In this document: positions 1 through 18,270 of the stretch, in pieces
Numbering within the stretch: position 1 is the stretch's first letter
How the letters are laid out: each line of letters opens with the position of its first letter
Assembly (NCBI GenBank): GCA_943842505.1
Contig: CALTDI010000011.1
Coordinates: 1 to 64,000, forward strand
DNA: 64,000 nucleotides
DNA from: an uncultured Pseudomonadales bacterium
GTDB lineage: Bacteria > Pseudomonadota > Gammaproteobacteria > Pseudomonadales > Pseudohongiellaceae
Direction: 5' to 3'
Notes under the pieces: model-generated
The model's input: only the letters and a program-made list of their open reading frames with translations
Told to the model about the DNA's origin: nothing
Database searches by the model: none
Position numbers and translations under genes: made by a program

Positions 1-1
1 T

Positions 2-346
2 TTGGCTGTACTACTTTTATTGTTTGCCAGTTCATCGCATATCCATCTTCGTTATTGCCTCGATGGTGATGAAGCTCCCGTCTCTATTCACTTTGAGACT
101 GCTGATTCGCATCCGAGCGACCACACCGAAGTAGATAGAGCAGATGTAGAGAGCGAGCTTTCTCTAGACATTCTGATCGACAAAAATTTCAAATTATCAA
201 TTGATGCAGTTGCATTACCTAATTCCTATTCGCTTGCGACTGTAGTTAAATCTCAGACTTTATTCGTACCTCACATACGTGAGGATATCCCCGATAAGCC
301 AACAACACTTCTTCCTCCTTCCCGCGCACCTCCCGCAATAGCTTAA
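2..346 (+). CDS. Small exported protein upstream of czcCBA, 5' end cut by window
   Basis: The reading frame is open from the first bases, so the true start probably lies outside the window. The visible 114 residues begin with a hydrophobic stretch (AVLLLLFASSS) like the end of a signal peptide, followed by HIHLRYCLDG and an acidic, His-containing segment. Small periplasmic proteins of about this size often precede czcC in heavy-metal efflux operons (CzcI-type), and the position 75 bp before czcC fits that. I do not recognise a defined domain, so a role in metal sensing or binding is inference from context. Confidence 0.6.
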   Translation: MAVLLLLFASSSHIHLRYCLDGDEAPVSIHFETADSHPSDHTEVDRADVESELSLDILIDKNFKLSIDAVALPNSYSLATVVKSQTLFVPHIREDIPDKPTTLLPPSRAPPAIA

Positions 347-421
347 GTTGTACTTAAACAATTCGACTCGGACGAAATGTCTGAGGCGTTGCTTGTTCTA
401 ACAATTTGCGGGAGAAAGACT

Positions 422-1675: not shown

Positions 1676-1685
1676 AGAGGACAAG

Positions 1686-2609: not shown

Positions 2610-2620
2610 GAGACGATGCG

Positions 2621-5600
2621 ATGCTTGAAACAATTATAAGGCAAATGATCCGCAGTCGTTGGATCGTCATGATGGGTGCGCTCACCATTTGCGCGTTTGG
2701 CGTGTGGAATTTTCAAAACCTTCCTATTGATGCTGTGCCGGACATCACCAATGTCCAAGTACAAATCAATACCGAAGCACCCGGATATTCTCCGCTGGAG
2801 TCCGAACAACGCATTACGTTTCCTATTGAAACAACACTGGCAGGACTACCGCAACTTTCTTACACCCGGTCACTTTCCGCTTACGGCTTGTCTCAGGTTA
2901 CAGTTGTTTTCGAGGAAGGCACCGATATCTATTTTGCACGAAATCTCGTGAATTCACGACTTAGCGCAATTAAAAATCAATTGCCCGCTAACCTTGAGCC
3001 AGAAATGGGGCCAATCTCGTCAGGTCTTGGTGAGATATTCATGTACACAGTTAGCGCCGAAGACGGTGCGTTGCAGGCAAACGGAGCGCCTTATGATCTG
3101 TTTTCACTGCGAGAGATACAAGACTGGATTATCAAGCGACAATTAATTCTGGTGGACGGTGTTACAGAAGTTAATACCAGCGGGGGATATGAGAAGCAAT
3201 ATCACGTAACGCCAGACCCAGCCAAGATGCTGCTTTGGGGTATAACTCTACCGGAATTGATATCTGCGTTATGGGATAACAATATTAATCAGGGAGCTGG
3301 GTACATCGAGCGCAATGGACAGCAGCTCATGGTTCGCTCACCGGGTCAACTGAAAACAATCCAAGACATCAAACAAGTCAGCATCGAATCACGGAACAGC
3401 ATACCTATTCAGGTTAAAGATGTAGCTGAGGTCTCTATTGGCCGAGAGCTAAGAACAGGTGCTGGCACACATTCGGGTCAAGAGGCCGTTATTGGCACAG
3501 CCTTTATGTTGTTGGGCGAAAACTCACGAACGGTAGCGCGTGAAGTCGCGGCGAAGCTTGAAGAAATCAACACAACGCTACCCGATGGTGTCATAGCCGA
3601 GCCGCTATACGACAGAACTGTATTGGTAGACAACGCCATTGCAACAGTGGAAGAGAATCTTGTCGTTGGTGCGCTTTTGGTTGTCGTTGTTCTATTTCTT
3701 CTGCTGGGTAATATCCGCGCGGCTCTTATCACCGCAACAGTCATTCCCATCAGCATGCTGGCAACTGTCTCAGGCATGGTTGAAGCTGGTGTTTCGGCTA
3801 ACCTAATGAGCTTGGGCGCGCTCGATTTCGGACTAATCGTGGATGGCGCGGTAATTATCGTAGAGAACTCCATTCGCAGGCTCGGCATGGCGACTCAAGG
3901 AACGAAAGTTCTGAGCCTGAAGGAGCGGCTGCAAGTCGTTTACGAGGCAACGAACGAAGTTATCAGGCCCAGTCTATTTGGTGTGGCCATTATAACGCTA
4001 GTCTACATTCCCATATTCTCCCTCACTGGAATTGAAGGGAAAATGTTTCATCCGATGGCGCTTACGGTCATTATTGCCTTGCTGTCTGCAATGGTTCTCT
4101 CGATATCTTTTGTACCAGCAGCCGTCGCGTTATTTATAACGGGCAAAGTCTCTGAGAAGAAGAACCCGATCATGAAAGGCGCAGAATGGGTTTACAAACC
4201 AGTGCTGCAAGCCTCGCTGAAGTTTCGTTGGTTGGTCGTCGTCTTCGCGTTATCGACAGTAGGCGGTGCAGGCTGGTTAGCTAGCACTATGGGCTCTGAG
4301 TTTATTCCCCAACTTGATGAAGGTGATGTGACAGTTCAGGCGCTGCGGCCACCGGGTACAAGTTTGCAGCAATCTATTGATATGCAGGACATCCTAGAGC
4401 GCCGATTGATGGACTTTCCTGAAGTGCAGGATGTGTTCTCCAGAATTGGTACACCAGAGATTGCCTCTGATCCAATGCCTCCCAGCATTTCGGATACCTT
4501 CGTAATTCTCAAAGATAGAAGCGAATGGCCTGATCCGTTCCGAGAAAAACGAGACTTATTGGAAGAGTGGGAAGAAACCCTTGTAGAGCTTCCTGGGCAA
4601 ATTTATGAAGTCACGCAACCGATTCAGATGCGATTTAATGAACTAATTTCTGGGGTGCGCTCTGATCTTGGCATCATGGTGTTCGGAGAAGATTTAGATC
4701 AACTCGGAATTACCGCGCAAGAGATTTTGGAAATCGTTGAAGAGATAGAAGGCGCAGCCGATGCGAGAATTGAGCAGACCGCTGGACTTCCTATGTTAAC
4801 CCTTACTCCAAAGCGTGATGTGTTGTCGCGTTATGGCCTGAGCGTTAGGGATGTGCAGCACCTGATAAGCACAGCCATAGGAGGTGAATCTGTTGGTCTC
4901 ATTTACGAAGGGGACCGTAGATTCCCGCTCGTTGTGCGACTGCCTGAAGAGATGCGTGTGGATATGGATAGGATAGGTAGATTGCCGATTCCCGTTCCTA
5001 CCTTAGCCAGTGAAACTGGCTATGTTCTGTTGTCTGAAGTTGTTGAAACAGAATTGATTTCATCTCCTAATCGCATTAGCCGAGAAAACGGTCAACGCCG
5101 AGTCGTGGTAAGTGCCAATGTAAGGGGGCGCGATCTAGGATCTTTTGTAGCGGAGGTACGTGTAGCTATTTCTGATCAGGCAGACATTCCACCCGGATAC
5201 TTTGTTGAATACGGAGGCACCTTTGAGCAACTTGAATCTGCGAGCCAGCGATTATCATTGGTTGTGCCTGCGACGTTAATTTTGATCTTCGGATTGTTGA
5301 TAGTTGTTCTGGGTTCATTTCGCGACTCGCTCATCATCTTTACAGGTGTCCCCCTCGCTCTAACTGGAGGAGTGCTCGCGCTTTATTTTCGCGGCATGCC
5401 TTTATCGATCACGGCTGGTGTTGGTTTTATCGCCTTATCAGGAATTGCGGTTCTGAATGGTCTGGTCATGCTCTCGTTTATCAAGGCCATGTGGCAGGAA
5501 ACTGGAGAGTTAGTGCCTTCTATCATTGAAGGGGCGATGACGAGGCTACGCCCAGTTCTAATGACTGCTCTAGTCGCCAGTCTTGGGTTTATTCCTATGG

Positions 5601-5749
5601 CGCTGAATACTGGGATTGGCGCTGAAGTTCAGCGACCACTCGCAACCGTCGTTATTGGTGGCATCGTCTCATCCACCTTGCTCACACTGGTTTTACTACC
5701 CGCGCTATACCTTATTGTGAATAAGAATCGCCATTTAGTGAACGAGTAG
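2621..5749 (+). CDS. czcA: Heavy-metal RND pump, CzcA type
   Basis: Proton-driven inner-membrane transporter of the HME-RND family, 1042 aa, the usual length. It has two sets of transmembrane helices with two large periplasmic loops. The TM4 signature reads DFGLIVDGAVIIVEN; this Asp/Asp/Glu pattern is that of the divalent-cation (Zn/Co/Cd/Ni) branch and differs from the CusA (Cu/Ag) signature, so Czc/Cnr-like specificity is more likely than copper or silver. It starts 11 bp after czcB and is followed 9 bp later by czcD. The exact metal cannot be read from sequence. Confidence 0.92.
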   Translation: MLETIIRQMIRSRWIVMMGALTICAFGVWNFQNLPIDAVPDITNVQVQINTEAPGYSPLESEQRITFPIETTLAGLPQLSYTRSLSAYGLSQVTVVFEEGTDIYFARNLVNSRLSAIKNQLPANLEPEMGPISSGLGEIFMYTVSAEDGALQANGAPYDLFSLREIQDWIIKRQLILVDGVTEVNTSGGYEKQYHVTPDPAKMLLWGITLPELISALWDNNINQGAGYIERNGQQLMVRSPGQLKTIQDIKQVSIESRNSIPIQVKDVAEVSIGRELRTGAGTHSGQEAVIGTAFMLLGENSRTVAREVAAKLEEINTTLPDGVIAEPLYDRTVLVDNAIATVEENLVVGALLVVVVLFLLLGNIRAALITATVIPISMLATVSGMVEAGVSANLMSLGALDFGLIVDGAVIIVENSIRRLGMATQGTKVLSLKERLQVVYEATNEVIRPSLFGVAIITLVYIPIFSLTGIEGKMFHPMALTVIIALLSAMVLSISFVPAAVALFITGKVSEKKNPIMKGAEWVYKPVLQASLKFRWLVVVFALSTVGGAGWLASTMGSEFIPQLDEGDVTVQALRPPGTSLQQSIDMQDILERRLMDFPEVQDVFSRIGTPEIASDPMPPSISDTFVILKDRSEWPDPFREKRDLLEEWEETLVELPGQIYEVTQPIQMRFNELISGVRSDLGIMVFGEDLDQLGITAQEILEIVEEIEGAADARIEQTAGLPMLTLTPKRDVLSRYGLSVRDVQHLISTAIGGESVGLIYEGDRRFPLVVRLPEEMRVDMDRIGRLPIPVPTLASETGYVLLSEVVETELISSPNRISRENGQRRVVVSANVRGRDLGSFVAEVRVAISDQADIPPGYFVEYGGTFEQLESASQRLSLVVPATLILIFGLLIVVLGSFRDSLIIFTGVPLALTGGVLALYFRGMPLSITAGVGFIALSGIAVLNGLVMLSFIKAMWQETGELVPSIIEGAMTRLRPVLMTALVASLGFIPMALNTGIGAEVQRPLATVVIGGIVSSTLLTLVLLPALYLIVNKNRHLVNE

Positions 5750-5758
5750 GGAATAAAT

Positions 5759-6640
5759 ATGCACGATCATTCGCATAGTAGCGATGTCAGTAGCCAGAGG
5801 ATTGGCTGGGCATTCGCATTGAACGTTGGGTTCACCGTTATAGAGTTCATAGGTGGCCTGTTTACCAATAGCACGGCAATCATGGCAGACGCTGTCCATG
5901 ATCTAGGTGATAGCCTTTCAATTGGTACAGCTTGGGTATTGAGTAAGCTCTCAAAAAAGAAAGCTGACAGTTCGTTTACATATGGCTACAAGCGGCTCTC
6001 GTTGCTTGGTGCCTTGATAAACGGCATTGTGTTGATTGCGGGATCAATCTGGGTGTTAGCGCAGGCGATTCCTCGGCTGTTTGACCCCGTTATGCCCGAA
6101 GCAGAGGGAATGCTGGCACTCGCCATTCTGGGTGTTACTGTCAATGGATTTGCGGCATATAAGCTCAGCGCGGGTACAACTCTCAACGAAAAAGTCCTCA
6201 ACTGGCATTTGTTAGAAGACGTATTGGGGTGGGCTGCGGTTCTAATAGTGTCAATCGTACTTATGTTTGTTGAAGTGCCGATATTGGATGCGCTACTCGC
6301 TGTGGGATTTACGCTGTTTATTCTATTTAACGTAGTAAGAAATACATGGTATGCCATTAAGCTCTTTGTCCAGGCTGTGCCTGAGCTTGGGCTAATCGAG
6401 AGAGTACGCAAAGAGTTACTGACTATTTCTTCTATCACCTCGATCCACCATGAGCACGCTTGGTCGCTTGATGGGGAATCAACTGTCTACACGGCGCATT
6501 TGGAAATGAGCTCCGCTATGTCATCAGAAGATCAGCTAGATATTAAGAATCAGATTGCACTTGTTCTAAAAGAGTTTCAATTTTTACATACAACAATCGA
6601 GCTAGAATTTCCCCAAGAAGACTGTAGAGATGAGAGCTAA
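5759..6640 (+). CDS. czcD: Cation diffusion facilitator, CzcD/ZitB-like
   Basis: Inner-membrane metal/proton antiporter of the CDF family (293 aa). It has a His-rich amino terminus (HDHSHSS), about six transmembrane segments, the metal-site motif ADAVHDLGD in TM2 and a second His/Asp pair in NWHLLED of TM5, then a cytoplasmic C-terminal domain of about 85 residues. CDF pumps move Zn, Co or Cd from the cytoplasm to the periplasm, where CzcCBA expels them, and the operon position directly behind czcA fits this two-step route. Confidence 0.9.
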   Translation: MHDHSHSSDVSSQRIGWAFALNVGFTVIEFIGGLFTNSTAIMADAVHDLGDSLSIGTAWVLSKLSKKKADSSFTYGYKRLSLLGALINGIVLIAGSIWVLAQAIPRLFDPVMPEAEGMLALAILGVTVNGFAAYKLSAGTTLNEKVLNWHLLEDVLGWAAVLIVSIVLMFVEVPILDALLAVGFTLFILFNVVRNTWYAIKLFVQAVPELGLIERVRKELLTISSITSIHHEHAWSLDGESTVYTAHLEMSSAMSSEDQLDIKNQIALVLKEFQFLHTTIELEFPQEDCRDES

Positions 6641-6646
6641 AGACTT

Positions 6647-7195
6647 ATGAGCGAAATATTGTTTGCAGCTCTATTAACATTAGAAATTACTCTTCTGGTT
6701 TTGGTGTTATCCCAGATTTTTGGGAGAGACTTTCGTATCTGGCCTCCATCCACAGGAAAATCAACTACTACATTCTGGGCACTGGGCATCTTTTATGTCC
6801 TAATAATCGGCAGTATTTGGCTTTGTGTGCTGCAGTGGTCAAACCCTCTATTTGATCAGAGTTGGATACGCTATTTCGGAGGGACACTGCTCAGCTTGGG
6901 GCTCATACTGTATGGTTGGTGCAGGGTGTATATGAGTAAAAAGGTTGAGTTCGGCAACAAGAATCACCTAATTACTCAAGGACCATACCAATATACTCGC
7001 AATCCTTTGTATATCGCTGACACCTTTATTTTCATTGGATTTGCCTTTCTAGGAAATTCACTACTTCTAATAATGCTAATGGCTTTGCTTGTAGTAACTA
7101 TTTTTTTGCTGCCGATAGTTGAGGAGCCATGGTTGTTAGAGCAATACGGTGAACTCTATAGAGACTATATGAAGACGACTCCCAGGTTCTTTTAA
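6647..7195 (+). CDS. Membrane methyltransferase, isoprenylcysteine/PEMT-like family
   Basis: A 182-aa integral membrane protein with four to five hydrophobic segments. The conserved SAM-binding region is present (QGPYQYTRNPLYIAD and, near the end, EEPWLLEQYGELYRDYMKTTPRFF), the hallmark of the ICMT/phospholipid N-methyltransferase family. Bacterial members of this family are commonly found next to metal efflux genes (for example CzcN); their substrate is unknown. It starts 6 bp after czcD and is the last gene of the operon, being followed by a terminator. Confidence 0.75.
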   Translation: MSEILFAALLTLEITLLVLVLSQIFGRDFRIWPPSTGKSTTTFWALGIFYVLIIGSIWLCVLQWSNPLFDQSWIRYFGGTLLSLGLILYGWCRVYMSKKVEFGNKNHLITQGPYQYTRNPLYIADTFIFIGFAFLGNSLLLIMLMALLVVTIFLLPIVEEPWLLEQYGELYRDYMKTTPRFF

Positions 7196-7222
7196 GCGTC
7201 TGTTTAGTGCTAAAAGCAGGCG

Positions 7223-7252
7223 TCCGGTAATACCTATTACCGGAAGCTTTTC
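7223..7252 (+). terminator. Rho-independent terminator of the czc operon
   Basis: Perfect 10-bp inverted repeat TCCGGTAATA / TATTACCGGA with a 2-base centre, followed by AGCTTTTCT. It lies 28 bp after the stop codon of the last operon gene. Confidence 0.75.
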
Positions 7253-7582
7253 TACCAACTTTGACTGCCCTAGCTTGAATCTATATGACAGGGCCTAAGC
7301 AACATCAATTCCCAGCTACTAAACTACTAGTATTGAGCCCTAAACCCGGCGACAAAGCGTCTTGTAGAGTCTAAGACGGCGTTCGTACACTTATTGTGTG
7401 GGAGGATGCAAGCAACCCAAGAATGGGGCTGTCAGGGCAATTAATATGGTTGGTTTGGTGGAACTTTACTGCAGATATTCGCCTAGTCCAACTCCGCATT
7501 CTCGCTCATCAAGTAACCAACCAATCCATTCCTACCAAGTTAACCTCGTAATTTGGCCTTTGGCGCAGAATTCATTATGCTG
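7253..7582. other. Spacer between metal operon and cassette
   Basis: About 330 bases with no convincing gene. A weak hairpin (CGTCTT/AAGACG near 7357-7378) and a G-rich stretch GGTTGGTTTGGTGG at 7448-7461 are visible. The latter recurs at 8561 and, on the other strand, at 10758-10782. Confidence 0.5.
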
Positions 7583-7607
7583 ACTATTACTTAATTCAAG
7601 TAATAGT
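7583..7607. repeat. Left palindrome flanking the TGT-like cassette
   Basis: Perfect inverted repeat: ACTATTACTT, spacer AATTC, AAGTAATAGT. Its central 21 bases (7585-7605) match 19 of 21 bases of the palindrome at 10712-10732 on the far side of the two-gene cassette. It ends 16 bp before the first ATG, so it could be an operator or overlap the promoter or leader. A recombination site is the other possibility. Confidence 0.8.
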
Positions 7608-7622
7608 GGTTTTGGAAGGCCA

Positions 7623-9395
7623 ATGGCGCAAAACGACAAGCAGCTCAACTCTGTAAAAAATCAGCTCTCAGAACTCCAAGAGAAAAGCGGAATAGTCAGT
7701 GCAGATGTGCGCCAATCCAATACGTCTCTGTATGGGCTGCTAAGCGAATTGTACCTGTGGTGGCGTGAAGCGAACGAGATCGAAGGCTTCTTGGATCAGG
7801 AATATTCGCTGTTGCCTCGTAAGCCAAAAAAAGTCAATTACGGTACTAACTACGGCCCACTGATGCGGATCACCTTTGGCATCAACAATCTCACCAATCA
7901 AAAAATTGATACCTATAGCCGCGCCCTTAACTCTGTACATCGAGAGTTTGAGGCGAATCCTAAGCTGTACGAAAAAGATGGTGCGGCCAAGTTAACCAAC
8001 TTCATCGATCAATCAAATGGCCTGTCAGCCTTGGCGGGGTATAGATTAGGAGAAGATCCTGTCGATGAGGGGAGTGGCATATTGCGATCGCCAGCCCAAA
8101 AGGCCACGGACAAAAAACTGATTGGTGAGTATTTGCTCAATGCTGCAAGGCTATTCTATGAAACTGCCTCGCTAAAGCCACTGGATGTAGCAGATTATTT
8201 CTCCACTGATGAGCATGACTATAGCCTATTGCTTGTTAAGCGCACTGACACTGAAGTTAAGTGGGTTGCTACGAAGCATGACAAGAAGCTGATCGAAACA
8301 ATGTTGATTAGTAACTACCGTGGGCGATTAGATGCAGCACAGCCAGCTATTCGCCTTTTACTTGAGCTGATCCAAACACAGTGTTTACCTAAGAATTTGA
8401 AAAAAATGACCAAGCAATTGGTAGATAAGAGTACGTTGGTCGAGGATGGCAAGTCGGAGAAGTTTACTTCACTGCGCCGTGTTATGTATCAGCACAGTAC
8501 GGGGCAATTCGTGCTTAGCCCTATGAGAGCTAATTCTGGCGTAGTTAGTTTGGTTAAGTTGGTTGGTTTGGTATTGGATGGTTGCGATCAGGACGTGTTT
8601 TTACCGCCTGTTCAACGTGCCATTATTGAGCGTAGGTGCTTACGAGAGCTTGATTTTAATCTGTATGATGCTGGCGAATCAGGCCAGTTTTCCAAGTACA
8701 AAGGCGATAACTCGGCCTCACACGTGTTGATGCTAGAGCACCGTATCTTGCCCCACGCCAGAATCCATCTTCAATTCTGGCCATTCTACGAGACTCTTCC
8801 GCAACCAATAGACCAAGTAACGCTCAATCCAAAGTATGTATTCAAATCAAAATGGAAAGTTGAATTGCCGCATTCGTGGTTCCAGCGGTTCAGTGATGAA
8901 TTCATGGATGAGTGGTTTAGCGAACAAGGGCTGTATTTGAAGAGGCCTCCTCAATTTTCTCTCAAGGTGACGTTTGGGCATGAGGGTATTGCCGTCGAAT
9001 TTATCTTCAAAAATGACGAATTTGAAAGTGAAGAAGCCGTTGCCCTTGATGGGAATAAGGTAACTGGCAATGAAGTTACTGTTTTGTTCGCTTCAAAAGA
9101 TTGGGCACCAGTAATGCGAAGTATTTCCTTGTTAGAAGTTGAAGGCGATGTTTCGCTAGCTGTGAACGATGATGTGATGCGTATCTGTTTCAAGACAGTT
9201 GGCACTGGTGGGGAGCATGAAATTCACATTCCCACGCTAGACAAAGACGACAATAGATCGACAGCTCCGTTTATCCGCTATAAACCAACAAGTGTTATCG
9301 ATGAGTACGAAGATCAGGATCAGGATCGCATGGCCGAAGAAGAAGAGATTTTCTATGTAGAACAAGAAATAGCGACCAAATGGCCGGATGCCTGA
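7623..9395 (+). CDS. Unknown 590-aa protein, partner of TGT-like gene
   Basis: I do not recognise a named family. The first 30 or so residues are Gln/Ser/Leu-rich and may form a short coiled coil. The middle is mixed alpha/beta with no Walker, nuclease or helicase motif that I can see, and there are no membrane segments. The C-terminal third is beta-rich. Around residues 475-545 the pattern VTVLFASKDWAPVMRSIS...GDVSLAVNDDVMRICF...HEIHIP weakly resembles one domain of a sliding clamp, and this is only a resemblance. The tail is acidic (DEYEDQDQDRMAEEEE). The stop is 11 bp before the next ATG, so the two genes are almost certainly co-expressed and functionally linked. Confidence 0.8.
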   Translation: MAQNDKQLNSVKNQLSELQEKSGIVSADVRQSNTSLYGLLSELYLWWREANEIEGFLDQEYSLLPRKPKKVNYGTNYGPLMRITFGINNLTNQKIDTYSRALNSVHREFEANPKLYEKDGAAKLTNFIDQSNGLSALAGYRLGEDPVDEGSGILRSPAQKATDKKLIGEYLLNAARLFYETASLKPLDVADYFSTDEHDYSLLLVKRTDTEVKWVATKHDKKLIETMLISNYRGRLDAAQPAIRLLLELIQTQCLPKNLKKMTKQLVDKSTLVEDGKSEKFTSLRRVMYQHSTGQFVLSPMRANSGVVSLVKLVGLVLDGCDQDVFLPPVQRAIIERRCLRELDFNLYDAGESGQFSKYKGDNSASHVLMLEHRILPHARIHLQFWPFYETLPQPIDQVTLNPKYVFKSKWKVELPHSWFQRFSDEFMDEWFSEQGLYLKRPPQFSLKVTFGHEGIAVEFIFKNDEFESEEAVALDGNKVTGNEVTVLFASKDWAPVMRSISLLEVEGDVSLAVNDDVMRICFKTVGTGGEHEIHIPTLDKDDNRSTAPFIRYKPTSVIDEYEDQDQDRMAEEEEIFYVEQEIATKWPDA

Positions 9396-9406
9396 GGATA
9401 AGACCC

Positions 9407-10693
9407 ATGAGCATTATCAGTCCTGATTACGCTGTTTTTACGCCAGCAATCAATAGTATGTATGTAGATGCCATTGCCTCCACTCTGCCAAATGATCGCC
9501 AATTGCCCGATGGCCTTACATTAGATGACTTTGCTTTTTGGCTAAAATCCTCAAACCTCTGGCACCATGAGCATTTTCTGCACTCCATCGGCCAGTACAA
9601 GGTAGGAAAGCAATTTAACAATGCTGTGACGCAACGTGGCCGCACAGATGGAGTACTGATAGGCGATAGCGGAGGCTACCAAATCGGCAAAGGTAAACTG
9701 GAAGGTTTGGATGGTTTGGTTGCTGGTATGAGCGGAAACGATGCTTGTGCTGCTTGGCGTAGTGCATATGACGCTAGGAAATGGATTGTTACTTGGCTGG
9801 AGACTTACACAAACTATGCAATGACACTGGATATGCCGCTTTGGGCTACAGGAAGCCTTGGTAAATCGTCGCCTTTTCACAAGTGCACAGATAAGCAGCT
9901 AACGGATATGACAGTAGAAAATCTGCAGTTCATTGATAGCCACCGCCAAGGCCGCACCAAGTGGCTCAATGTCATACAGGGGCTAGATGCTGCGGGTATG
10001 ATTAAGTGGTGGAAGGCCGTGAAATGGTTTGATTGCGCTGGGTATGCCTGTACCAGTGTAATTGGGAAAAAGCTTGGATTGCGAGCTGTATTAGAGCCAT
10101 TGTTAACGATGCGTGACGATGATGCCTTCAGGAAAGGGCGCGATTGGATACATTTCTTGGGTATATCGACTGCGCCATGGGCTGTGATGTATACAGCTAT
10201 CCAGCAGGCCATTCGCGCAGAAATAAACCCTAATCTGCGTATAAGCTATGACAGTGCAAGCCCTATTAGACTCGCTTCAGTAAATGAGCAGTACAACACT
10301 TCGCCCGCCTTTGGTTTGGATGAAAATGGTTGGGGTATTGGTAAAGTACAAACACCTCAGAGCAAAAAGCTTGTGGGCAGTCAGGAGCCAGTACCATTCA
10401 ACTCGCCGCTTGGTGATCGACTGACTTTAGGTGATTTGAACTTCCGCGAAGGCAACAAGTTCACTCGCAGGCAGTTTGATACTCTCAGCCTCGTGTACCT
10501 AATAAACCATAATATTTGGGTATATCTAACGGCATTCCAAACGGCAAATGACCTCGCTTTTGCTGGTAATCGCAGCCAAATACCGCCGAAATACAAGGCA
10601 TGTATTGAAGTCATAGAGGAGACGTTCAAAGTGGATGACTGGCAAGGCCTCTTGTCTAAAGAGCAGGTATTACTTGATAGTTTCACGGGGTAA
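9407..10693 (+). CDS. Divergent tRNA-guanine transglycosylase/DpdA-like enzyme
   Basis: 428 aa from the ATG at 9407, which sits 9 bases after GAGG; an earlier in-frame ATG at 9380 overlaps the upstream gene and lacks a ribosome site. The motifs of the TGT TIM barrel occur in order: DSGGYQ (87-92), LDMP (141-144), VIQG (189-192), LGIS (251-254) and YDSASPIR (281-288, compare FDCVLPTR of TGT, whose Asp is the nucleophile). Asp87 and Asp282 are therefore the likely catalytic pair. The Cys-rich zinc site of true TGT is absent. This combination is reminiscent of DpdA enzymes, which insert 7-deazaguanines into DNA. Whether the substrate is DNA or tRNA cannot be decided here. Confidence 0.75.
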   Translation: MSIISPDYAVFTPAINSMYVDAIASTLPNDRQLPDGLTLDDFAFWLKSSNLWHHEHFLHSIGQYKVGKQFNNAVTQRGRTDGVLIGDSGGYQIGKGKLEGLDGLVAGMSGNDACAAWRSAYDARKWIVTWLETYTNYAMTLDMPLWATGSLGKSSPFHKCTDKQLTDMTVENLQFIDSHRQGRTKWLNVIQGLDAAGMIKWWKAVKWFDCAGYACTSVIGKKLGLRAVLEPLLTMRDDDAFRKGRDWIHFLGISTAPWAVMYTAIQQAIRAEINPNLRISYDSASPIRLASVNEQYNTSPAFGLDENGWGIGKVQTPQSKKLVGSQEPVPFNSPLGDRLTLGDLNFREGNKFTRRQFDTLSLVYLINHNIWVYLTAFQTANDLAFAGNRSQIPPKYKACIEVIEETFKVDDWQGLLSKEQVLLDSFTG

Positions 10694-10711
10694 TACGAAG
10701 CCAAAAACTGC

Positions 10712-10732
10712 TATTACTTAAATTAAGTAATA
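10712..10732. repeat. Right palindrome flanking the TGT-like cassette
   Basis: Perfect palindrome with arms TATTACTTAA and TTAAGTAATA around a single A, lying 18 bp after the stop codon of the TGT-like gene. It matches the central 21 bases of the left palindrome (7585-7605) at 19 positions. As it has no T-tract and recurs upstream, it is not a typical terminator. Confidence 0.8.
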
Positions 10733-10757
10733 AGCCCATCGAGAGCCGTAATTTCTT

Positions 10758-10782
10758 CCAAACCAACCAAACCAACCAAACC
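10758..10782. repeat. CCAAACCAA tandem repeat, possible G-quadruplex on minus strand
   Basis: Two and three-quarter copies of the 9-mer CCAAACCAA give six CC pairs spaced by 2 or 3 A. The minus strand reads GG-TTT-GG-TT-GG repeatedly, the form of a two-quartet G-quadruplex. Confidence 0.7.
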
Positions 10783-10817
10783 ACTTACGAATTGCCTGTT
10801 TTGGTCTGATTGTGAGC

Positions 10818-11141
10818 CTAGTGTATTGATTCCGCAGTAATATCGCTCAATACCACCTCAGATAATCGCTTAAACAGCAAGTGGTTGTGCCATGTCCTGC
10901 TTGATGTAGACATAGAAGACGACTCCGCTATTTCCCTCCAAGTAATGCTCAAGCCATTTAAATTCCTGTATAGAGCCAATAAGGCAGACTCCGAAATGTC
11001 TAGTTGCTTGTGCTTCATTACAGAGATGTAGCTTCTGCTCCTATTAAGGTACTGCTTGCTGAATTCGTTATCCGATATAGGCATCACTTCTCTTTTGTTG
11101 AGTTCCATTCTTATGTTTTCAATTAGTTTGATTCCTTTCAA
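10818..11141 (-). CDS. Small unknown protein of the mobile element
   Basis: About 107 aa. The start chosen is TTG at 11141 because a strong Shine-Dalgarno (AAAGGAGGAGC) lies directly upstream; a longer frame from TTG 11159 would place that site inside the gene. The protein is helical and polar with the segment FSKQYLNRSRSYISVMKHKQLDISESALLALYRNL, which looks like a helix-turn-helix-type DNA contact. No family is assigned. It is the last gene of a leftward block with the HUH gene, so it may regulate copy number or replication. Confidence 0.6.
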   Translation of the reverse strand: MKGIKLIENIRMELNKREVMPISDNEFSKQYLNRSRSYISVMKHKQLDISESALLALYRNLNGLSITWREIAESSSMSTSSRTWHNHLLFKRLSEVVLSDITAESIH

Positions 11142-11325
11142 TAGCTCCTCCTTTTCCAATAATCTCTATTTTAGTATTCACTTTATTTTGGCGATAGTAA
11201 CTGCACTGTTAATTAAAACAGTTTCGATTATCACCGCGATTTGCAGTTTAGTAGCCTATGTCAGCGGCATTCTACGGGGCGCTCGCTTTGCAAACTGTCC
11301 CATGCCGCTTACGGCTACTATGTGC

Positions 11326-11883
11326 TTATCGCTGCTTTTCTTTTACAGCTTGGCGATTCTTTTGCAGTTTCGCATTATCTGAGCATAGCTCAACAAATAC
11401 GCCAGTATTTCCCATGTCACTTTCTTTGAGGCAGTAGTTAACTACGCCAAGCACGCCACCCAGCTCTAGCTGGACATGTTTGAATTTTATATTCGCGTCA
11501 CCGCAGATTTCAGACCACAGCTCAACAAACACATACCTAAAAGCATTATCTGAAATGTTCGCTGGCCACTCAATCAACCAATGTGCGTGTGTTGTGTCGC
11601 GAGCACTAGTATTAAGCTGCTGGCCTTCTTCAAGCCACAATGCCTTGTAGAGGCGCTGCTTAGTTCTGCCATGCACTAAGCGATCAATACGGTTGCGAAA
11701 ATGCGAACAGCACTTGTGTACGTCTACCTGCTTGGCTTTGCTGAAATGCGCTGTAACGAAGAAGTGCAGCTTATCTTCAGGCGCAATGCTGTCGCCAGCT
11801 AGAATGAAGTTTGCGGCGTCATAGAATGCGTTTAAGCGAGCATTGTTGTGAGCTGTTGAGTCTGTTAATTGTAGTATTTCCAT
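11326..11883 (-). CDS. Rolling-circle replication initiator-like HUH protein
   Basis: 185 aa. Three features in the right order suggest an HUH endonuclease of the Rep class: a beta strand FFVTAHF (41-47), the metal-binding pair HAH in THAHWLIEWP (99-101), and a YxxK catalytic motif in VVNYCLKE (Tyr150, Lys153). Such proteins nick a single-strand origin in small plasmids, filamentous phages and some integrated elements. There is no helicase domain, as is usual for single-strand phage and plasmid Reps. The neighbours are small unknown genes and a recombinase, consistent with an integrated replicon. Confidence 0.65.
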   Translation of the reverse strand: MEILQLTDSTAHNNARLNAFYDAANFILAGDSIAPEDKLHFFVTAHFSKAKQVDVHKCCSHFRNRIDRLVHGRTKQRLYKALWLEEGQQLNTSARDTTHAHWLIEWPANISDNAFRYVFVELWSEICGDANIKFKHVQLELGGVLGVVNYCLKESDMGNTGVFVELCSDNAKLQKNRQAVKEKQR

Positions 11884-11932
11884 ACTACTTACTTAGCAAA
11901 ACTAACGAATTAAGCGCTCAAACGGCCTGTTT

Positions 11933-12232
11933 TTAGCGAATTCCGGCACCTTTTCGCTCTAATTGCCTCTGTACGTCTCGCAGAGCTATGTATGCGCTAG
12001 CGCATGTGCCTGCATCGTTTAGTAGTTGATGATCTGTTTGTGCAGGTGATCTGTGGTTCATCTGTTGAGAGTGCCAGTACAGCTTGCCTATAAAGGCTTC
12101 ATCCTTACTCAACCTGACCAACCAATTCATATCTTTCTGGCTGATTGGCTGGAAGCTCCAAATTCGGTCAATCTTCCTAGCCTGCCCAATAATTGTTGGA
12201 TTCCCCATATTAAAAAATTCGTACAGTCTCAT
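11933..12232 (-). CDS. Small unknown protein of the mobile element
   Basis: 99 aa, started by ATG 12232 with AAGGAGA 5 bases upstream, which is a good ribosome site. The sequence is polar and basic (for example MGNPTIIGQARKIDRIWSFQPISQKDMNWLVRLSKDEAF) with no membrane segment and no family that I recognise. It lies 49 bp upstream of the HUH gene on the same strand, so it is likely the first gene of that leftward operon. Confidence 0.55.
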   Translation of the reverse strand: MRLYEFFNMGNPTIIGQARKIDRIWSFQPISQKDMNWLVRLSKDEAFIGKLYWHSQQMNHRSPAQTDHQLLNDAGTCASAYIALRDVQRQLERKGAGIR

Positions 12233-12637
12233 TCGTTCTCCTTGTTAGTGCATATGTATTTACCTCCATAAGCGAGTTCTTACAGCGTTAAGCACTAGTT
12301 CTGCCCAATTGGGTTCTCTATAACGCGCTTACAGCTATTTGCGACAGAAAGTAATGTCTACTTACATATACCTAGTTTCGTCAAAGGTACTAACGTGTGG
12401 TTCTACAGAGTTCCACACGAGAACCGCGCGAAGCCAGTTAAAACAATACATAACAATCATTCTAGATTTCAGTAGGAATTCGAATGTTATGAAGCTAAGT
12501 TTATTAGTACTTAAGCACACATTATGAACAGGCAATGAACAAAGACTGGAAGCTAACAGCAGAACAACTACAAGAATTGCTCTTAGTGCGGAAAGTCGTA
12601 ATCAGTCCGACTATTGGCGAACAACTGGAGAACGAAG
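12233..12637. other. Divergent spacer between Rep block and recombinase
   Basis: About 400 bases, AT-rich, between the leftward Rep-like operon and the rightward recombinase. It contains overlapping inverted repeats: GTGTGG (12395-12400) with CCACAC (12413-12418), and GGTTCT (12399-12404) with AGAACC (12420-12425). Such a region would be where promoters, a replication origin or a nick site might lie; none can be assigned. Confidence 0.4.
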
Positions 12638-13219
12638 ATGAAGCAAGCAAAAGTACTAAACGAAGACGAATTGAAGAGATTGCTAAAGATAGTCAGATTC
12701 ACAAGACATCGGGAGAGGAATAGGCTAATTGTGCTTTTCTCGTTCTTGGCTGGATTAAGAGCATGTGAGATCGCACAACTTCGCGTTAAAGACGTAATAA
12801 CTGAAGCAGGCGAAGTAAAAGGCATGATCTACTTGAAGTCATATCAAACTAAAGGTAGCTCAGACCAGCAAGTAATAGTCAGCGAGGCGTTACGTAAGGA
12901 AGTTGGGATCTTTATCAGCAAGAATCCAATATTGCTAGAGAACAGAGAAGGGCATCTGCTGCGATCACAGAAGACCCGTAAAGGCTTTTCTTCACAGACA
13001 ATCCAAAACCTGTTCAGATTCCTATATCAGGAGGCTCATATTGAGAATGCATCAAGCCACAGTGGCAGACGCAGTTTTATTACCAATTTGAGCGAAAAGG
13101 GCGTGTCTGTGCGCGTAATACAGGAGTTAGCACGCCATAGTAGTATGGTAACGACACAGCGTTACATAGATGTGTCCGTGGATAAGCTTAAGAATGCTGT
13201 TGAACTGGTTGGGCTTTAA
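12638..13219 (+). CDS. Minimal tyrosine recombinase
   Basis: 193 aa, essentially only the catalytic domain of the phage integrase family. Catalytic residues are visible: Arg in LAGLRACEIAQL, the HxxR box in SSHSGRRSF, a His in ELARHSS and the Tyr nucleophile in TTQRYIDVS. The ATG at 12638 is chosen because CTGGAG lies 8 bases upstream; a TTG at 12614 is an alternative. There is no N-terminal SAM-like or arm-binding domain, as in FimB/FimE-type invertases. It might act on the element itself or on the palindromes flanking the upstream cassette, but this is unproven. Confidence 0.85.
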   Translation: MKQAKVLNEDELKRLLKIVRFTRHRERNRLIVLFSFLAGLRACEIAQLRVKDVITEAGEVKGMIYLKSYQTKGSSDQQVIVSEALRKEVGIFISKNPILLENREGHLLRSQKTRKGFSSQTIQNLFRFLYQEAHIENASSHSGRRSFITNLSEKGVSVRVIQELARHSSMVTTQRYIDVSVDKLKNAVELVGL

Positions 13220-13229
13220 ATCTTTCTGT

Positions 13230-15043
13230 TTAGTCACAAACAGTACTAATATCAATTAGCATTTCAGTAAACTCGAATCTATTTTCTCCTTCTTCTGTAT
13301 ACATTTCGGCATCCCTGATTTGCTCTACAGTCATGAGTGACCAGTAATCTTCTAGGACATTCTGTTTGCGGCTGCGTTTTTCGTTTGCTATCAAAGTCTT
13401 TGCATCGTCAGTATCCGTGAATGTGAAGTTGCTGTTCGCCGGTAATTGCAAGCAATCTACATTTATGTAATTTTCCGGTTCTCTTTTTTTGGTCAGATAG
13501 GCCTTTATACCGTCAGCATGTAGTTCTGCTATCTTGTCCTTATTGGTCTGGTGTTCGCTAGTTCCCAAGTCTGAATCTAGGAAAACACAGTAAGGAATGC
13601 CGAATTGGTTAGCGAGCTGCAATGTTTTCCAGTGCTTAATGTTCCCGCACCCACCTATTGGGACTATTGCTATTCTCTTATCTTGCAGCGTATGAGCGAT
13701 ATGTCCCCCAGCCTTGAGTTGGTCGGCAGTGTGATTTACAAAAAACACATCACTTTTACCTTCGACTAGTAGTATCGCCGTTGCATCTTTGGGTATTGGG
13801 TCTGGCAAAATACCTAATGCTTCAACAATTTTCTCAAATGCGGCATCCGATCCCATTTCTACGCTTCTGTCGTGACCTATTTTCTCTACAAATCGTAGTG
13901 AGGATAAAGGCAGCAATCCAGCTAGAGCTGGTGTGTGAGTTGTTAGAAGAATCTGACAGTTATCTGTATTTGATAATTCAATAAATGAATTTATTAGCAT
14001 TTCCTGGTGGTCAGGGTGTTGCGAAGTTTCTGGTTCCTCAAATGCAAAAATAACGCTATTACTATCTCTCTGCGACTGTCTTCTTTCGGCTTCTGCCCTG
14101 AAGAAGCTCAGCAGGATTAGCCTCCTTACACCGCTCCCCCTTTTATTGACTGAGATATCATCTTCTGACTTTATTGAGAGTTTAAACTGGGAGTCGAATT
14201 TGGGCTCGCTCTTAAAGCTTGGTACAAGTTGATCAGCAAGATCTGGAGACATTTCTTGCAATTTTTCCAGAGTTCTATTCGCGGTTTCCTCCGCTCTAAG
14301 TTGCACTTCCTGTTTAATGTGGTTTAGCTCCGCGTCTAGCTCTAATAATGCTTGTTTGACTGCTATTTGCATTGGGTCCGTAACTTCTTTGTCATCATCT
14401 TGGCTTCTTCGATCAGATTGAAAAAGAGCAAATAGTGGGAGATAATTTTCGATTGCCTCATAGACTTTTTTTGTGTCTTCTTTATCAACGTAAAGATCAG
14501 TATGAACTATTTGAAGGTCTTGGAAGCTATTTCTAATTGCTTGTCTAATAGAAGCGTTTACAGCTCCGTTATAGTTTTCCCCTGGCACGTCTAGTTCATT
14601 GGCTCTAGCTATCAGCGCTGCTCGTTTTAGTGTCAGTAAGTCATCCCCGCTCGCTACGCTTGGATGGTCGCAAGTGATGTAAATTTTGGGGCTTGGATTA
14701 ACAGATGTGGCGGGGTAAACTTTCTTTATTTCAAGCTGACCATCCGCGTTGAGAAGATACTCATCACCGAGATTTGTAGGGTGGGCAGCATCAAGAACTA
14801 GTTCTTCTGGCAAATCAACAAAAACACAGCTTATCTCAATTAAGTTATTGTCTGCCTCGATATTCAGGTCCGCTCTTTCGCATTTAACTAGTTTGTTATT
14901 GAAGAATATTTCTAGAGCCTCGAATACTGAAGACTTTCCAGCGTCATTCTTACCTATAAACGCTGTTAAGTTCTCTATGGGAATTACAGTTTTCAGTTTT
15001 GTACCCCCTAAAAATGCTTTAGTTTAACTGTAAGCAATCTCAT
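13230..15043 (-). CDS. OLD-family ATPase/Toprim nuclease (frameshifted near start)
   Basis: Overcoming-lysogenisation-defect type protein: N-terminal ABC-like ATPase with Walker A GKNDAGKSS, signature region around RGSGVRRLILLSFF, Walker B FAFEEPETSQHP and the switch TTHTPA, then a C-terminal Toprim nuclease with LLVEGKSDVFF and FLDSDLG. About 604 aa. The natural start is ATG 15043 (MRLLTVKLK...), with GAGAGG upstream, but one A is missing in the run at 15018-15020, which stops that frame; the rest reads on in frame from there. No UvrD-like partner follows, so it resembles solitary class 1 OLD rather than Gabija. It could be a phage-defence nuclease. Confidence 0.85.
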
Positions 15044-15184
15044 GGTGAGCCTCTCTCGTTAACGGAGCTTTATGTTGAAATTTATTCTGCAAAGAATCTA
15101 AGGGTTGAGCGAGAAAGGTTATAATGAAAATGACGGGATTGCGATAGTTATTATGGTAATTTTTGAGTAGGTGGTTTGTAGATG

Positions 15185-16466
15185 CTACCGCCCAGCATGC
15201 TCAGCAGCATTCATCCTCGCGCTGACTTTGCTGTAGAACTTCTCAAGCATCTCAACGCTAGTGCCCATCTGAACAGCCAGCTTGTGTATGTCCCGGCCAG
15301 CCGCCAATGCTGATGTTGCGTATGTATGCCGCAAGCTATACAAAGAGCGGTTCTTGCCATCCGCCCCTGCTCTCATATTGTGGTGTTCAAGGAAAAGTCT
15401 AAATGCCCTTCGTAGGTTTGCAGTAGTAACTCGTTCGCCGCTTCGATCCACAAAGACGTATTCATCCAGTTTGGCTTTTATGGCTGACTCAACTGTCTTG
15501 TGCTTGATTCGGGGATGATACTCAATGATCCTCTCCAAATGAGCCTTCACCACATCTCTAGCGACCAGCTCTCTTTTGCCGCGTTTGCCGTCAACGTTCA
15601 CCGCTAGATAGTCTATTGAGTTTTTCTTACCTGAACCAAACAGTGAGAGATTCTTCCATTTCAAGTTGTAAGCTTCTGTGCCTGCTCTTACGCCTGTGTG
15701 GCCTAGGAAGCCAACGTAGTCGAACATTACTTCTCGCAGTTCGCGTGTCTCTTGCTTGTGGCCCATTTGCGACCAGTCCCACATGTTCATACAGATGAAG
15801 TTCCACTCGTCATTAGTGAATGCACCACGACTCTCGCTCTTAATGCCTTTATTAAGAAGTTTGGGTTTTATTGATTCTGTAATCCAGCCATGAACTAATG
15901 CCTCATCAAAAACACGGTTCAATGCTGAATTGTGAGTATTGATAGTGCTCTGCTTGGCTTTGAATTTTGCTTTGGGGATTTGTTTCGCAATTTTGGCTTG
16001 AGTAGGCTTTTTGGCGAGTTTCTTTTTCTTAGTCAGCTCGCGCTGCTCAATCTCAAGTCCCATCTTGGCATCTCGCCACGCTTCGTATTCTTTTAGAAGC
16101 TTCACGTTCACATTGGCAATGTCGTACTTGCCAAAGAACGGAATGAGGTAGTTGTTGATTACGCGGATATAGTCTTTGTAGGTGACTTTGCCGCTGCCGC
16201 CATCCAATTCAGTCTGCATGCGATCAGCGGCAAATTTGGCAACATTACGGAACTTACGAGTACTTTGGGGGAGTTTGTTTTCAGCTTTAGCTTCGGCGCC
16301 ATAGAATAGCTTTAGTGCTTTTCTTTGGCTTCAGCTTCATCGTCAGTGCCAGTAGAAAGCGTTCCCACTTTCCATTCTTAAGCTTGATGGCTGCTTGCCA
16401 CTTATTGCTGCGGCCTCTTTTATAAAGATTAACTTTCTTGTCGAGTACGCTGATTGCTTCTCGCAT
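15185..16466 (-). CDS. tRNA-type site-specific integrase (two frameshifts as read)
   Basis: Large tyrosine integrase beside tRNA-Phe. The C-terminal 344 aa are open (15185-16219) with catalytic Arg in HTGVRAGTEAYNL, SLRHTYATS, and the Tyr nucleophile in EKFYSKV. Upstream, the arm-binding domain is still readable (NLYKRGRSNKWQAAIKLKNG..., then STGTDDEAEAKEK, then ALKLFYGAEAKAENK) but in three frames: one base is missing at the A-run 16356-16358 and one at the T-run 16319-16322. The start would be ATG 16466. It is either inactivated or affected by sequencing error. Position and orientation next to the 3' end of the tRNA show it to be the island integrase. Confidence 0.88.
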
Positions 16467-16534
16467 AAAGGCGATTCCGAATAGCTATTTCTGCTTTTCG
16501 TTAACTGTACAATCAATAAAACGGGAATACTAGC

Positions 16535-16556
16535 GGTGTGCTACAGGTGTGCTATA
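16535..16556. repeat. 11-bp direct repeat between integrase and tRNA-Phe
   Basis: Two adjacent copies of GGTGTGCTACA/GGTGTGCTATA (10 of 11 identical), 50 bp from the tRNA 3' end and 68 bp upstream of the integrase start. Position suggests integrase arm-type or excisionase binding sites; this is an inference. Confidence 0.6.
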
Positions 16557-16606
16557 GAATATTAGAACGAAGAGTTTCGCTAACTATTTGAAATATAACT
16601 AAAAAA

Positions 16607-16682
<76 letters not shown>

Positions 16683-16895
16683 TTTTTGATCTGCTGCTCT
16701 CGGTGATACTTCGTTGAAGTCCGACATCTCACTCGATCACTTACCTAAGTAAGCTCCCTCCTTCGATTCGGTCTTCGCCTCGTCTCACCTTCTCTCGCGA
16801 CGCTCAAAATCTGAGCTAGATTTGATAGATCGTCGATTTGCGCAAGCCGCGTATTAAATAGAATCTGGGCTTTTTAGTCAAGAGAGGCAGCGAAT

Positions 16896-17168
16896 TTACT
16901 CGCTTTCGGGCACGAAGCCCTCGGCGCGGTCGAAATCTTCGTTGTTGAGGAACCTATCCATCTGGTTCTGCAGGTATTTACGATCGTCGGCGTTCATCAT
17001 ATTTAGCTGCTTTTCGTTGATTAGCATGGTCTGGTGGGCTTGCCACTCGCCCCAGGCCTGCTTTGAGACGGTTTCGAAGATCTCCTGGCCCTTGGGGCCG
17101 GGGTAGGGAGGCGCTGCCAGGGCAGGGAGTTCTTTGTCGTATTTCTTGCAGTGGACCGTGCGTGACAT
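16896..17168 (-). CDS. yggX: Fe(2+)-trafficking / oxidative damage protection protein
   Basis: 90 aa, the normal family length, with the conserved start [40 protein letters not shown] and [15 protein letters not shown]. YggX protects iron-sulfur proteins against oxidants and is genetically linked to MutY, whose gene lies 40 bp upstream on the same strand. The pair probably forms one transcript with the asmA-like gene. Confidence 0.95.
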
Positions 17169-17208
17169 AGCTGTTCTCGTCTTCTATTGCGTGGATCTAG
17201 AGTTGTAG

Positions 17209-18270
17209 TTAGGAATTCTTGGCTAACTTGGATAGCAGCTTCTTAACCGGTGCTGCCAATCCGACTTCCAGTGAGTGATCTAAAGGGTACCAGAGCCAGC
17301 GATCGGTTTCCGCTATTTCATCCTGTTTGCCGGCGCGCAGACACACCGGGGTGATGTCTAGATGGTAGTGGGAGAAGCTGTGTCGGATTGGCTCGAGCTT
17401 CTCTCTCTTGCCACCTGCCGGTTCACTGATACTGATGCCGCCCAATTGGGGGAGCGAGTCTGTCTCGGGTGATTCCGGCAGGCTGTAGAGAGACCCCCAG
17501 ATGCCGGTATCCGGTCTCTTCTGCAGCAGCACCTCGCCCGCGTCGTTGAGCACTACAAACATGGCTACGGATTTAACCGGCAGCGTCTTCTTCGCCTTCT
17601 TGCCGGGGAATTCTGCCGTGCGCTCTTGCTGGTAAGCCGCGCAATCGGACTGGAAGGGGCAACTCTGGCAGGCGGGTTTACTGCGGGTGCAGAGGGTGGC
17701 GCCCAGATCCATGATCGCCTGGGTATAGTCGGCGACACGCTCCAGAGGCGTTAGTGACTCTGCGATTTCCCAGAGCTGCTTCTTTACGGCGGATTGTTCG
17801 GGCCAGCCTGCTATGCAGTGGTAGCGCGCCAGCACGCGTTTCACATTGCCATCCAGGATGGGTGCGCGCACGCCCATGGAGATTGCCGCTATGGCACCGG
17901 CTGTGGATTGGCCGATGCCATCCAGTTCCATTAGGCCCTCGACGGTTTGCGGAAACACGCCTGCATGGGAGTTCACTACCGTCTTCGCGGCTTTGTGCAG
18001 GTTGCGTGCCCGGGCGTAGTAGCCAAGACCGGTCCACAGATGAAGAACCTGATCGGTCTGTGCCGCGGCGAGTGCATCGACGGATGCGAAGCGCGCCATG
18101 AAGCGTTCGAAGTAGGGTATGACGGTGGCGACCTGAGTCTGCTGCAACATTATCTCAGAGACCCAGACGCGATAGGGCGTGCGGTCGGTTTGCCACGGCA
18201 GGTCATGACGGCCGTGTTGATCGAACCAGTCCAGAAGCTGTTGCGAGAAGAGAGTTTTATTGCTTGGCAT
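17209..18270 (-). CDS. mutY: Adenine DNA glycosylase
   Basis: Removes A mispaired with 8-oxoguanine. 353 aa. Visible features: the substrate-recognition start [24 protein letters not shown], the helix-hairpin-helix [14 protein letters not shown], catalytic Asp in ILDGNVKR, a [4Fe-4S] cluster motif C-x6-C-x2-C-x5-C ([17 protein letters not shown]), and a C-terminal NUDIX-like MutT domain ([15 protein letters not shown]). It lies 19 bp after the asmA-like gene in the same direction. Confidence 0.97.

Follow-up and report, generated by a model that had tools for sequence, protein, structure and literature searches.

A TGT-fold enzyme of a proteobacterial island is paired with a predicted clamp-fold protein and may form with it a two-protein DNA-modification module

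How enzymes of the DpdA type reach DNA rather than tRNA is, to our knowledge, an open question, and it is raised anew by a gene in the 64,000-nucleotide stretch of DNA of an uncultured Pseudomonadales bacterium analysed here (the window, which starts at base 1 of its contig). In a preliminary description made from the letters alone, the product of this gene had been read as a zinc-less relative of tRNA-guanine transglycosylase (TGT) and DpdA carried on a mobile island. The gene is:

9407..10693, + strand: putative base-exchange enzyme P0001, TGT fold, 428 aa, zinc-less (motifs, residue conservation, structural model, Foldseek)

The frame translates into 428 aa with no internal stops, and the motifs follow one another as DSGGYQ (residues 87-92), LDMP (141-144), VIQG (189-192), LGIS (251-254) and YDSASPIR (281-288). 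The CxCxxC zinc site was found in none of 148 aligned sequences (P0001 and 147 relatives), so that the motif order, the length and the missing zinc site given in the preliminary description were all borne out by translation and alignment. An alternative upstream ATG at 9380 falls within the preceding gene, and the start at 9407 is supported because the closest relative, L007, aligns over residues 1-428. Among the 148 sequences, D142 is present in all, D282 in 145 (with gaps in the other three), and Q191, H368 and N369 in 143, 142 and 143, respectively. D87 is present in 148/148, but this count is weak as proof because DSGG served as the retrieval pattern. Loss of Asp87 or Asp282, which had been named beforehand as a sign against such an enzyme, thus did not occur. 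From the alignments, Asp87, Asp142 and Asp282 together with Gln191 and His368-Asn369 are presumed to form the catalytic set; their roles are assigned partly by TGT chemistry and partly by a profile alignment at permissive settings with E. coli TGT (probability 85%), which places DSGG, D142, QG, D282 and HN of P0001 on their TGT counterparts. H368 and N369 are retained despite the missing cysteines, the TGT counterpart of H368 being a zinc ligand.

The TGT barrel that had been proposed for P0001 held under structure prediction and comparison. An AlphaFold2 model built from 82 sequences (pLDDT 96.6, pTM 0.94) gave 19 Foldseek matches in the PDB at E<=0.001, all of them tRNA-guanine transglycosylases (best 7.9e-8), with moderate TM-scores of 0.37-0.47 by query across the 19. 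The computation thus shows, for the predicted structure, a TGT barrel fold with conserved active-site residues. P0001 shares with bacterial TGT the barrel and the aligned residues, but lacks the CxCxxC zinc ligands and any match to the Pfam TGT family PF01702, which was found neither with P0001 (E up to 1) nor with 82 members (E up to 0.01). Across Pfam, PHROG, NCBIfam and PADLOC no family match was obtained for P0001; 81 aligned relatives returned nothing beyond three families, each matched by one member, and the best PDB sequence-profile match of P0001 was a TGT at E 0.87. P0001 and its relatives make up a large TGT family that is missing from all four of these libraries.

Sequence comparison places P0001 in a large family that has no name and is found on proteobacterial islands and in large phages. 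By tblastn, relatives of 25-28% identity were found in large phages (the PA5oct group, Phosso and Vibrio phage 2.275.O) and on an Azospirillum plasmid. P0001 as a single sequence retrieved no relatives from genome and viral contigs, whereas a five-member alignment did, yielding 64 loci on bacterial or archaeal genome contigs, from 355 pattern matches, and at least 571 matches on viral contigs. The best 80 of these at least 571 were analysed and, with L001, L003 and L004, make up the 83 viral loci counted below. Five phage-like contigs (L032, L043, L045, L051 and L070) were reclassified as viral instead of bacterial, and left out of the counts were L068, which has no enzyme frame at E 1e-3, the own-genome copies L005/L151 and the fragment L006/L152. 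The distribution is patchy, with matches in 2 of 390 genomes of the order and in 5 of 398 genomes of a phylum sample, where four are clear, P0001 among them. The fifth phylum match (G619; 18.6 bits) contains a stop and was judged spurious. In a genome of the same order (G051, L006/L179), a truncated enzyme gene lies between a short recombinase and a gene of a 147-aa family, and this is probably a decayed island.

The gene directly upstream of the enzyme stops 11 bases before the enzyme start:

7623..9395, + strand: partner, 590 aa, with a helical N-terminal module of ~200 aa, a predicted PCNA-like clamp fold and an acidic C-terminal tail
8220..9287, + strand: predicted clamp-fold part of the partner, residues ~200-555, limits estimated from the secondary structure of the model

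This gene was absent from the preliminary description. The partner is not convincingly matched by any family of Pfam, PHROGs, NCBIfam or PADLOC, and it has no match among PDB sequence profiles or, by tblastn, in plasmids and phages. Neighbourhood clustering placed a partner-type gene beside nearly every bacterial relative of the enzyme, in three sequence groups that are linked by profile comparison (1.1e-24, 7.6e-11 and 9.7e-9). Compared by BLAST with two Azospirillum neighbours, the partner showed no similarity; one of these two joins the superfamily by profile (90.4%). Two Azospirillum cases join it in this way, at 90-92%. In total, a partner of this one superfamily was found in 56 of the 59 bacterial loci (26 + 12 + 16 + 2). 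As for the other three, L013 offers merely 123 bases of upstream sequence, the contig of L061 stops 46 bases downstream, which is the partner's place in its clade, and L067 has instead a 666-aa gene that does not match the superfamily. The partner is mostly the direct neighbour of the enzyme, with exceptions that include L020 (595 bases) and L062 (1.8 kb), and in 20 of the 26 loci of the P590 group the two genes are separated, or overlap, by at most 14 bases. In the phylum sample it adjoins three of the four clear enzyme genes, the fourth gene being truncated. On the enzyme tree, partner type changes label 7 times against a shuffled mean of 45: P600 forms one clade (support 100), P590 with the partner-cut L013 another (99), and 34 of 36 clamp-phage rows fall in a third (98). 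This indicates, at the level of gene sequences and gene order, that the enzyme-partner pairing is conserved.

A model of the partner from 27 sequences (pLDDT 85.8) gave 407 Foldseek matches in the PDB at E<=0.001 (best 3.3e-9), and PCNA or sliding-clamp chains make up all of the top 50 listed; in a viral structure library, clamps were most of the named matches listed. TM-scores among the 50 of 407 matches listed were moderate, at 0.25-0.31 by query and 0.54-0.63 by target. From about residue 200 the model runs in strand-helix-three-strand units like gp45, which has been described with such units (PMC12746103), and the two-domain clamp fold is present in the prediction. The partner is therefore predicted to have a sliding-clamp (PCNA-like) fold, and on this model it may work as a clamp. 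It shares the predicted fold with PCNA and gp45, but differs from them in the extra helical N-terminal module, the acidic tail and the presumed pore helices, which are not basic. The family means of the five helices expected to face DNA range from -0.44 to +0.19, and those of the window partner carry +2, 0, +3, -4 and +1, with the helices chosen from the model. The N-terminal ~200 residues behave as a separate module, since partial matches to the partner profile were found in 13 other genomes of the sample. Among 11 such loci fetched, the module stands at the end of 435-693-aa proteins in 8 (L183, L184, L185, L187-L190 and L192, in genomes without an enzyme match), and in one it is a 127-aa piece adjoining the 147-aa family.

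Considering enzyme and partner together, we favour, at a probability of roughly 60%, a DpdA-like DNA base-exchange enzyme that is guided by its own clamp-fold subunit, the two proteins forming a DNA-modification module. The partner would hold the enzyme on DNA or dock it to the replication machinery, and this contact would make modification processive or let it follow replication. The base, the DNA target, the enzyme-partner contact and the biological role are what we infer here.

The phage relatives bear on this reading in two respects, a neighbouring gene and a terminal peptide. Upstream of the enzyme, 78 of the 83 viral loci have a presumed clamp gene that codes for 239-291 aa and ends no more than 1.3 kb away; in 62 of those 78 it lies within 400 bases. 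Of the remaining loci, L087, L092 and L144 have less than 610 bases upstream (L087 retains a piece), and in L071 and Phosso the gene is absent. All 26 members scanned match phrog_12062, a family of "unknown function", and one of the 26 also matches the PHROG "DNA polymerase processivity factor" (6.7e-5). The assignment as a clamp is presumed from this one match together with gene position; a profile of the family did not match T4 gp45. Still further upstream, 75 of 87 loci have a gene for a DNA polymerase; the single representative that was scanned contains family B domains.

FxxLF is present in the C-terminal tail of 31 of 46 non-redundant viral enzymes, where 1000 shuffles gave a mean of 1.7 and a largest value of 7. 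Searching the last 12 residues of 1791 phage ORFs for Fxx[LM]F gave 88, compared with about 5 in shuffles: 71 DNA polymerases, 12 enzymes of the P0001 family and 5 others. Seen from the polymerases, 71 of 80 end in this way, for example PA5oct gp171. T4 polymerase, whose tail reads ASLDFLFG, binds its clamp via a C-terminal SLDFLF according to PMC12746103, and a C-terminal PIP motif is treated in PMC3012046. By its residues, then, the phage enzyme tail resembles the T4 clamp-binding peptide, and the phage enzymes seem tied to the phage's own clamp; they would reach the same end as the island pair by a clamp-binding-type, polymerase-like peptide in the enzyme tail. FxxLF was found in 0 of 51 bacterial enzyme tails, and because it is absent there, the case for an enzyme-partner contact in bacteria is made by the gene pairing. 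The broad pattern hydrophobic-x-x-[LMIV]-F also occurs in 29 of the 51 bacterial tails (shuffled mean 5.9), apparently due to a helix, and for this reason FxxLF alone was used.

These layouts could be fortuitous, the adjacency of clamp and enzyme in phages being replication-gene clustering and the clamp fold of the bacterial partner a chance resemblance. Replication genes do cluster in phages, and profiles of the partner types match those of the phage clamps only weakly (probability 0.4-27%, best E 7e-4), with no profile similarity of the partner types to T4 gp45 or to the clamp of phage 9g. We nevertheless regard coincidence as very improbable: gene order has no bearing on the tail peptide, the 407 matches of the partner have clamps on top, and the same layout recurs in a second enzyme lineage that has no detectable profile similarity to the first, as set out below for phage 9g.

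As to the base that a clamp-guided enzyme would insert, genes of 7-deazaguanine synthesis or transport lie near the enzyme in the 83 viral loci, many of which are short: FolE in 44, QueE in 35 and YhhQ in 6. QueC was found in 2 of the 83 with three QueC queries, again on contigs many of which are short. Since FolE and QueE are common but QueC is rare, an earlier intermediate may be what some phages insert, or they may rely on the QueC of the host. In 75 of 87 loci there is also a gene of 131 aa that matches QueD at E 1e-3, with no QueD match in Pfam, and is perhaps QueD-like. On the bacterial side, genes of YhhQ-type transporters occur in 8 loci (domain checked for one). A link of the family with 7-deazaguanine is thus supported by the phage relatives and these 8 loci. 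A GT-B-type glycosyltransferase was also observed in 64 of the 83 viral loci. A glycosyltransferase-like family with a weak Pfam match below the cut-off accompanies the phage enzyme in 62 of 87 viral-type loci (for example L001:11596-12657 and L043:7859-8932) and stands beside YhhQ in Roseobacter-type loci. The inserted base is perhaps glycosylated where such a gene is carried. In Vibrio phage 2.275.O, an amidoligase-like gene (L004:11495-12607; PF12224, E 1.8e-4, just below the cut-off) sits between the enzyme and annotated QueF, transporter, queuosine synthesis and FolE genes, and an amino-acid adduct on the base is possible there.

The preliminary description had noted that the window holds no preQ0 genes and had suggested host queuosine synthesis as the source of the base. 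Of the genes searched for, QueC, QueD, QueF and YhhQ, none was found in the window, and the genome matches to an ordinary TGT, QueC, QueD and QueF are all on other contigs, so that the host is likely able to supply the base; YhhQ was not found in the genome. In TGT chemistry, a covalent Asp-sugar intermediate is formed, guanine leaves and a 7-deazaguanine enters. By analogy, the island enzyme would form the Asp-sugar intermediate on its substrate, guanine in DNA, release the guanine and insert preQ0, preQ1 or a relative from the host queuosine pathway. The island would use this to mark its own DNA or that of its carrier, or to protect it against nucleases.

DNA is preferred over tRNA as the target because of the clamp-fold partner. 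If the enzyme were instead a TGT variant that modifies tRNA or another RNA, the partner would be a substrate-binding or scaffold protein that does not slide on DNA; the TGT fold of the enzyme and the non-basic presumed pore helices of the partner would suit this, and base-synthesis genes serve tRNA too. The zinc site of TGT, however, is part of the tRNA-binding region and is missing in 148/148 sequences, an ordinary TGT is already present in the genome, many phage relatives have 7-deazaguanine genes, a DNA polymerase and a presumed clamp as neighbours, and phage enzyme tails are like the terminal peptide of the polymerase. We consider the RNA target unlikely.

Downstream of the pair, and within the reading frames listed for positions 1-24000, the presumed island continues as follows:

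10818..11159, - strand: DUF6626 small protein, related to cluster 8, which is found in 10 of the relatives' loci (Pfam, clustering)
11326..11883, - strand: protein related to cluster 9 (8 loci), E 2.1e-6
12614..13219, + strand: short tyrosine recombinase, 201 aa, catalytic domain only (library matches, clustering)
13230..14813, - strand: AAA_15 ATPase with OLD-like TOPRIM, AriA/GajA-like (Pfam, PADLOC)
15185..16219, - strand: tyrosine integrase, C-terminal piece (Pfam); a piece matching the N-terminal part lies at 16290-16484 in another frame
16607..16682, - strand: tRNA-Phe(gaa), presumed integration site (tRNA search)

That the DUF6626 protein binds DNA and that the cluster 9-related protein has a replication role are guesses. 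The integrase gene looks interrupted because its N-terminal matching piece is in another frame. A mobile island, as first proposed, remains plausible in that tRNA-Phe and the integrase pieces mark one side, while no exact repeat of the tRNA-Phe region of at least 13 bases was found elsewhere in the window. Relatives of the short recombinase occur in 40 of the 59 bacterial loci; it was rejected as a defining part, as relatives are found on 325 plasmid records, mainly of Acinetobacter and Piscirickettsia. The 147-aa neighbour family was not found in positions 1-17500 of the window. By eye, positions 377-6640 hold a metal-efflux-type operon (outer-membrane channel, RND pump and cation-diffusion-type protein) of lower G+C, and the OLD-like protein at 13230-14813, with its AriA and GajA matches, is a candidate defence gene on the island.

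The position of this AAA_15/TOPRIM protein, 2.5 kb from the enzyme, would fit self/non-self marking as in the dpd cluster, with the pair modifying host DNA and the linked OLD-like nuclease attacking unmodified DNA. The gene is not conserved, though: L057 is the sole fetched locus with a relative, and the neighbours that do recur across bacterial loci are the short recombinase, the 147-aa protein and presumed replication genes, which makes this reading quite improbable. The least probable of the alternatives is that the enzyme joins the deazaguanine base to a protein, for example the partner, in the way of Cap10/Cap9 of type IV CBASS. Cap10-CdnD (9ntn; E 2.0e-3) is among the nearest non-TGT structures to P0001, enzyme and partner are closely paired, and deazaguanylation of proteins exists, Cap10 being a TGT-family enzyme that handles a 7-deazaguanine (PMC11996544). 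Cap10, however, acts on a protein N-terminus, TGTs score about four orders of magnitude better than Cap10-CdnD in Foldseek, only the OLD-like one of six island proteins matched in PADLOC, and no CBASS part is named among the 25 listed of the 72 PADLOC families that it matched.

Comparison with known DpdA lineages would extend the clamp-guided reading beyond the P0001 family. In phage 9g, where TGT-like base exchange acts on DNA and FolE, QueD, QueC and QueE genes surround dpdA, the DNA carries dG+ with up to 27% of dG replaced (PMC6884629); the word clamp does not occur in this paper. The 9g enzyme, tested as one sequence, has no detectable profile relation to the P0001 family (hhalign probability 0.2%). 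After 9g, nine more 9g-type loci were chosen from the closer part of the similarity list (45-76% identity) before tails were inspected. In 10 of the 10 Queuovirinae-type loci, a clamp gene comes after dpdA, either immediately or with one or two small genes in between (for the nine, identity was confirmed by sequence), and by annotation a DNA polymerase then follows in 8 (the next gene of L173 is hypothetical and L171 is unannotated). LF stands at or near the C-terminus of all 10 proteins (LFDE in 9g), as counted by eye afterwards, and the broad pattern hydrophobic-x-x-[LMIV]-F occurs in 5 of 10 (shuffled mean 0.56). The island enzyme differs from 9g DpdA in having a dedicated clamp-fold partner and neither a tail peptide nor adjoining synthesis genes.

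Among more distant DpdAs, LF-type tails are found in Dp-1 (RRLF), R5C (SLF) and ACP17 (DELFE), and are absent from Vibrio phage nt-1 DpdA2, mycobacteriophage Arbiter DpdA and Cellulophaga phage phiSM DpdA. The profile of the P0001 family may relate distantly to nt-1 DpdA2 (one sequence; probability 83.5%, E 8.3e-6), whose gene also adjoins 7-deazaguanine genes. At the level of sequence profiles, the DpdA likeness first proposed for P0001 is distant at most for DpdA2 and absent for the 9g type. DpdA2 differs in that tblastn with P0001 missed it, a search with DpdA2 itself reaches no phage of the PA5oct group (the two Pseudomonas records that it gives are pf16), and the 23.5 kb fetched contain no annotated clamp and the protein no tail peptide.

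Clamp gene and tail peptide thus occur together in two phage lineages without detectable profile similarity. We give about even odds to the wider proposal that 7-deazaguanine DNA transglycosylases are widely clients of sliding clamps, and that islands evolved a private clamp-fold subunit for replication-coupled or processive exchange. If true, the island type would be a new two-component DNA-modification system, and a clamp partner or a clamp peptide would be a simple answer to how DpdA-type enzymes reach DNA. Functions are thereby suggested for the partner and for phage phrog_12062, both of them protein families without a name. A precedent for a DNA-base-modifying enzyme bound to a sliding clamp is T4 alpha-glucosyltransferase with gp45, which has other chemistry and lacks a dedicated clamp subunit; PMC13216743 concludes that the clamp contact is not the main cause of its modification share. 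The kind of enzyme found here, a DpdA-like DNA transglycosylase, is known, and in the portions of the literature searched we found no published link of DpdA or another 7-deazaguanine transglycosylase with a sliding clamp. ParB-like genes were observed beside several DpdA genes: in phiSM one (L194:3603-4067) overlaps with dpdA and codes for a protein that has NLF at its end, and in some mycobacteriophages such genes flank DpdA. A ParB-family protein, DpdB, usually accompanies DpdA, as stated in PMC6392294.
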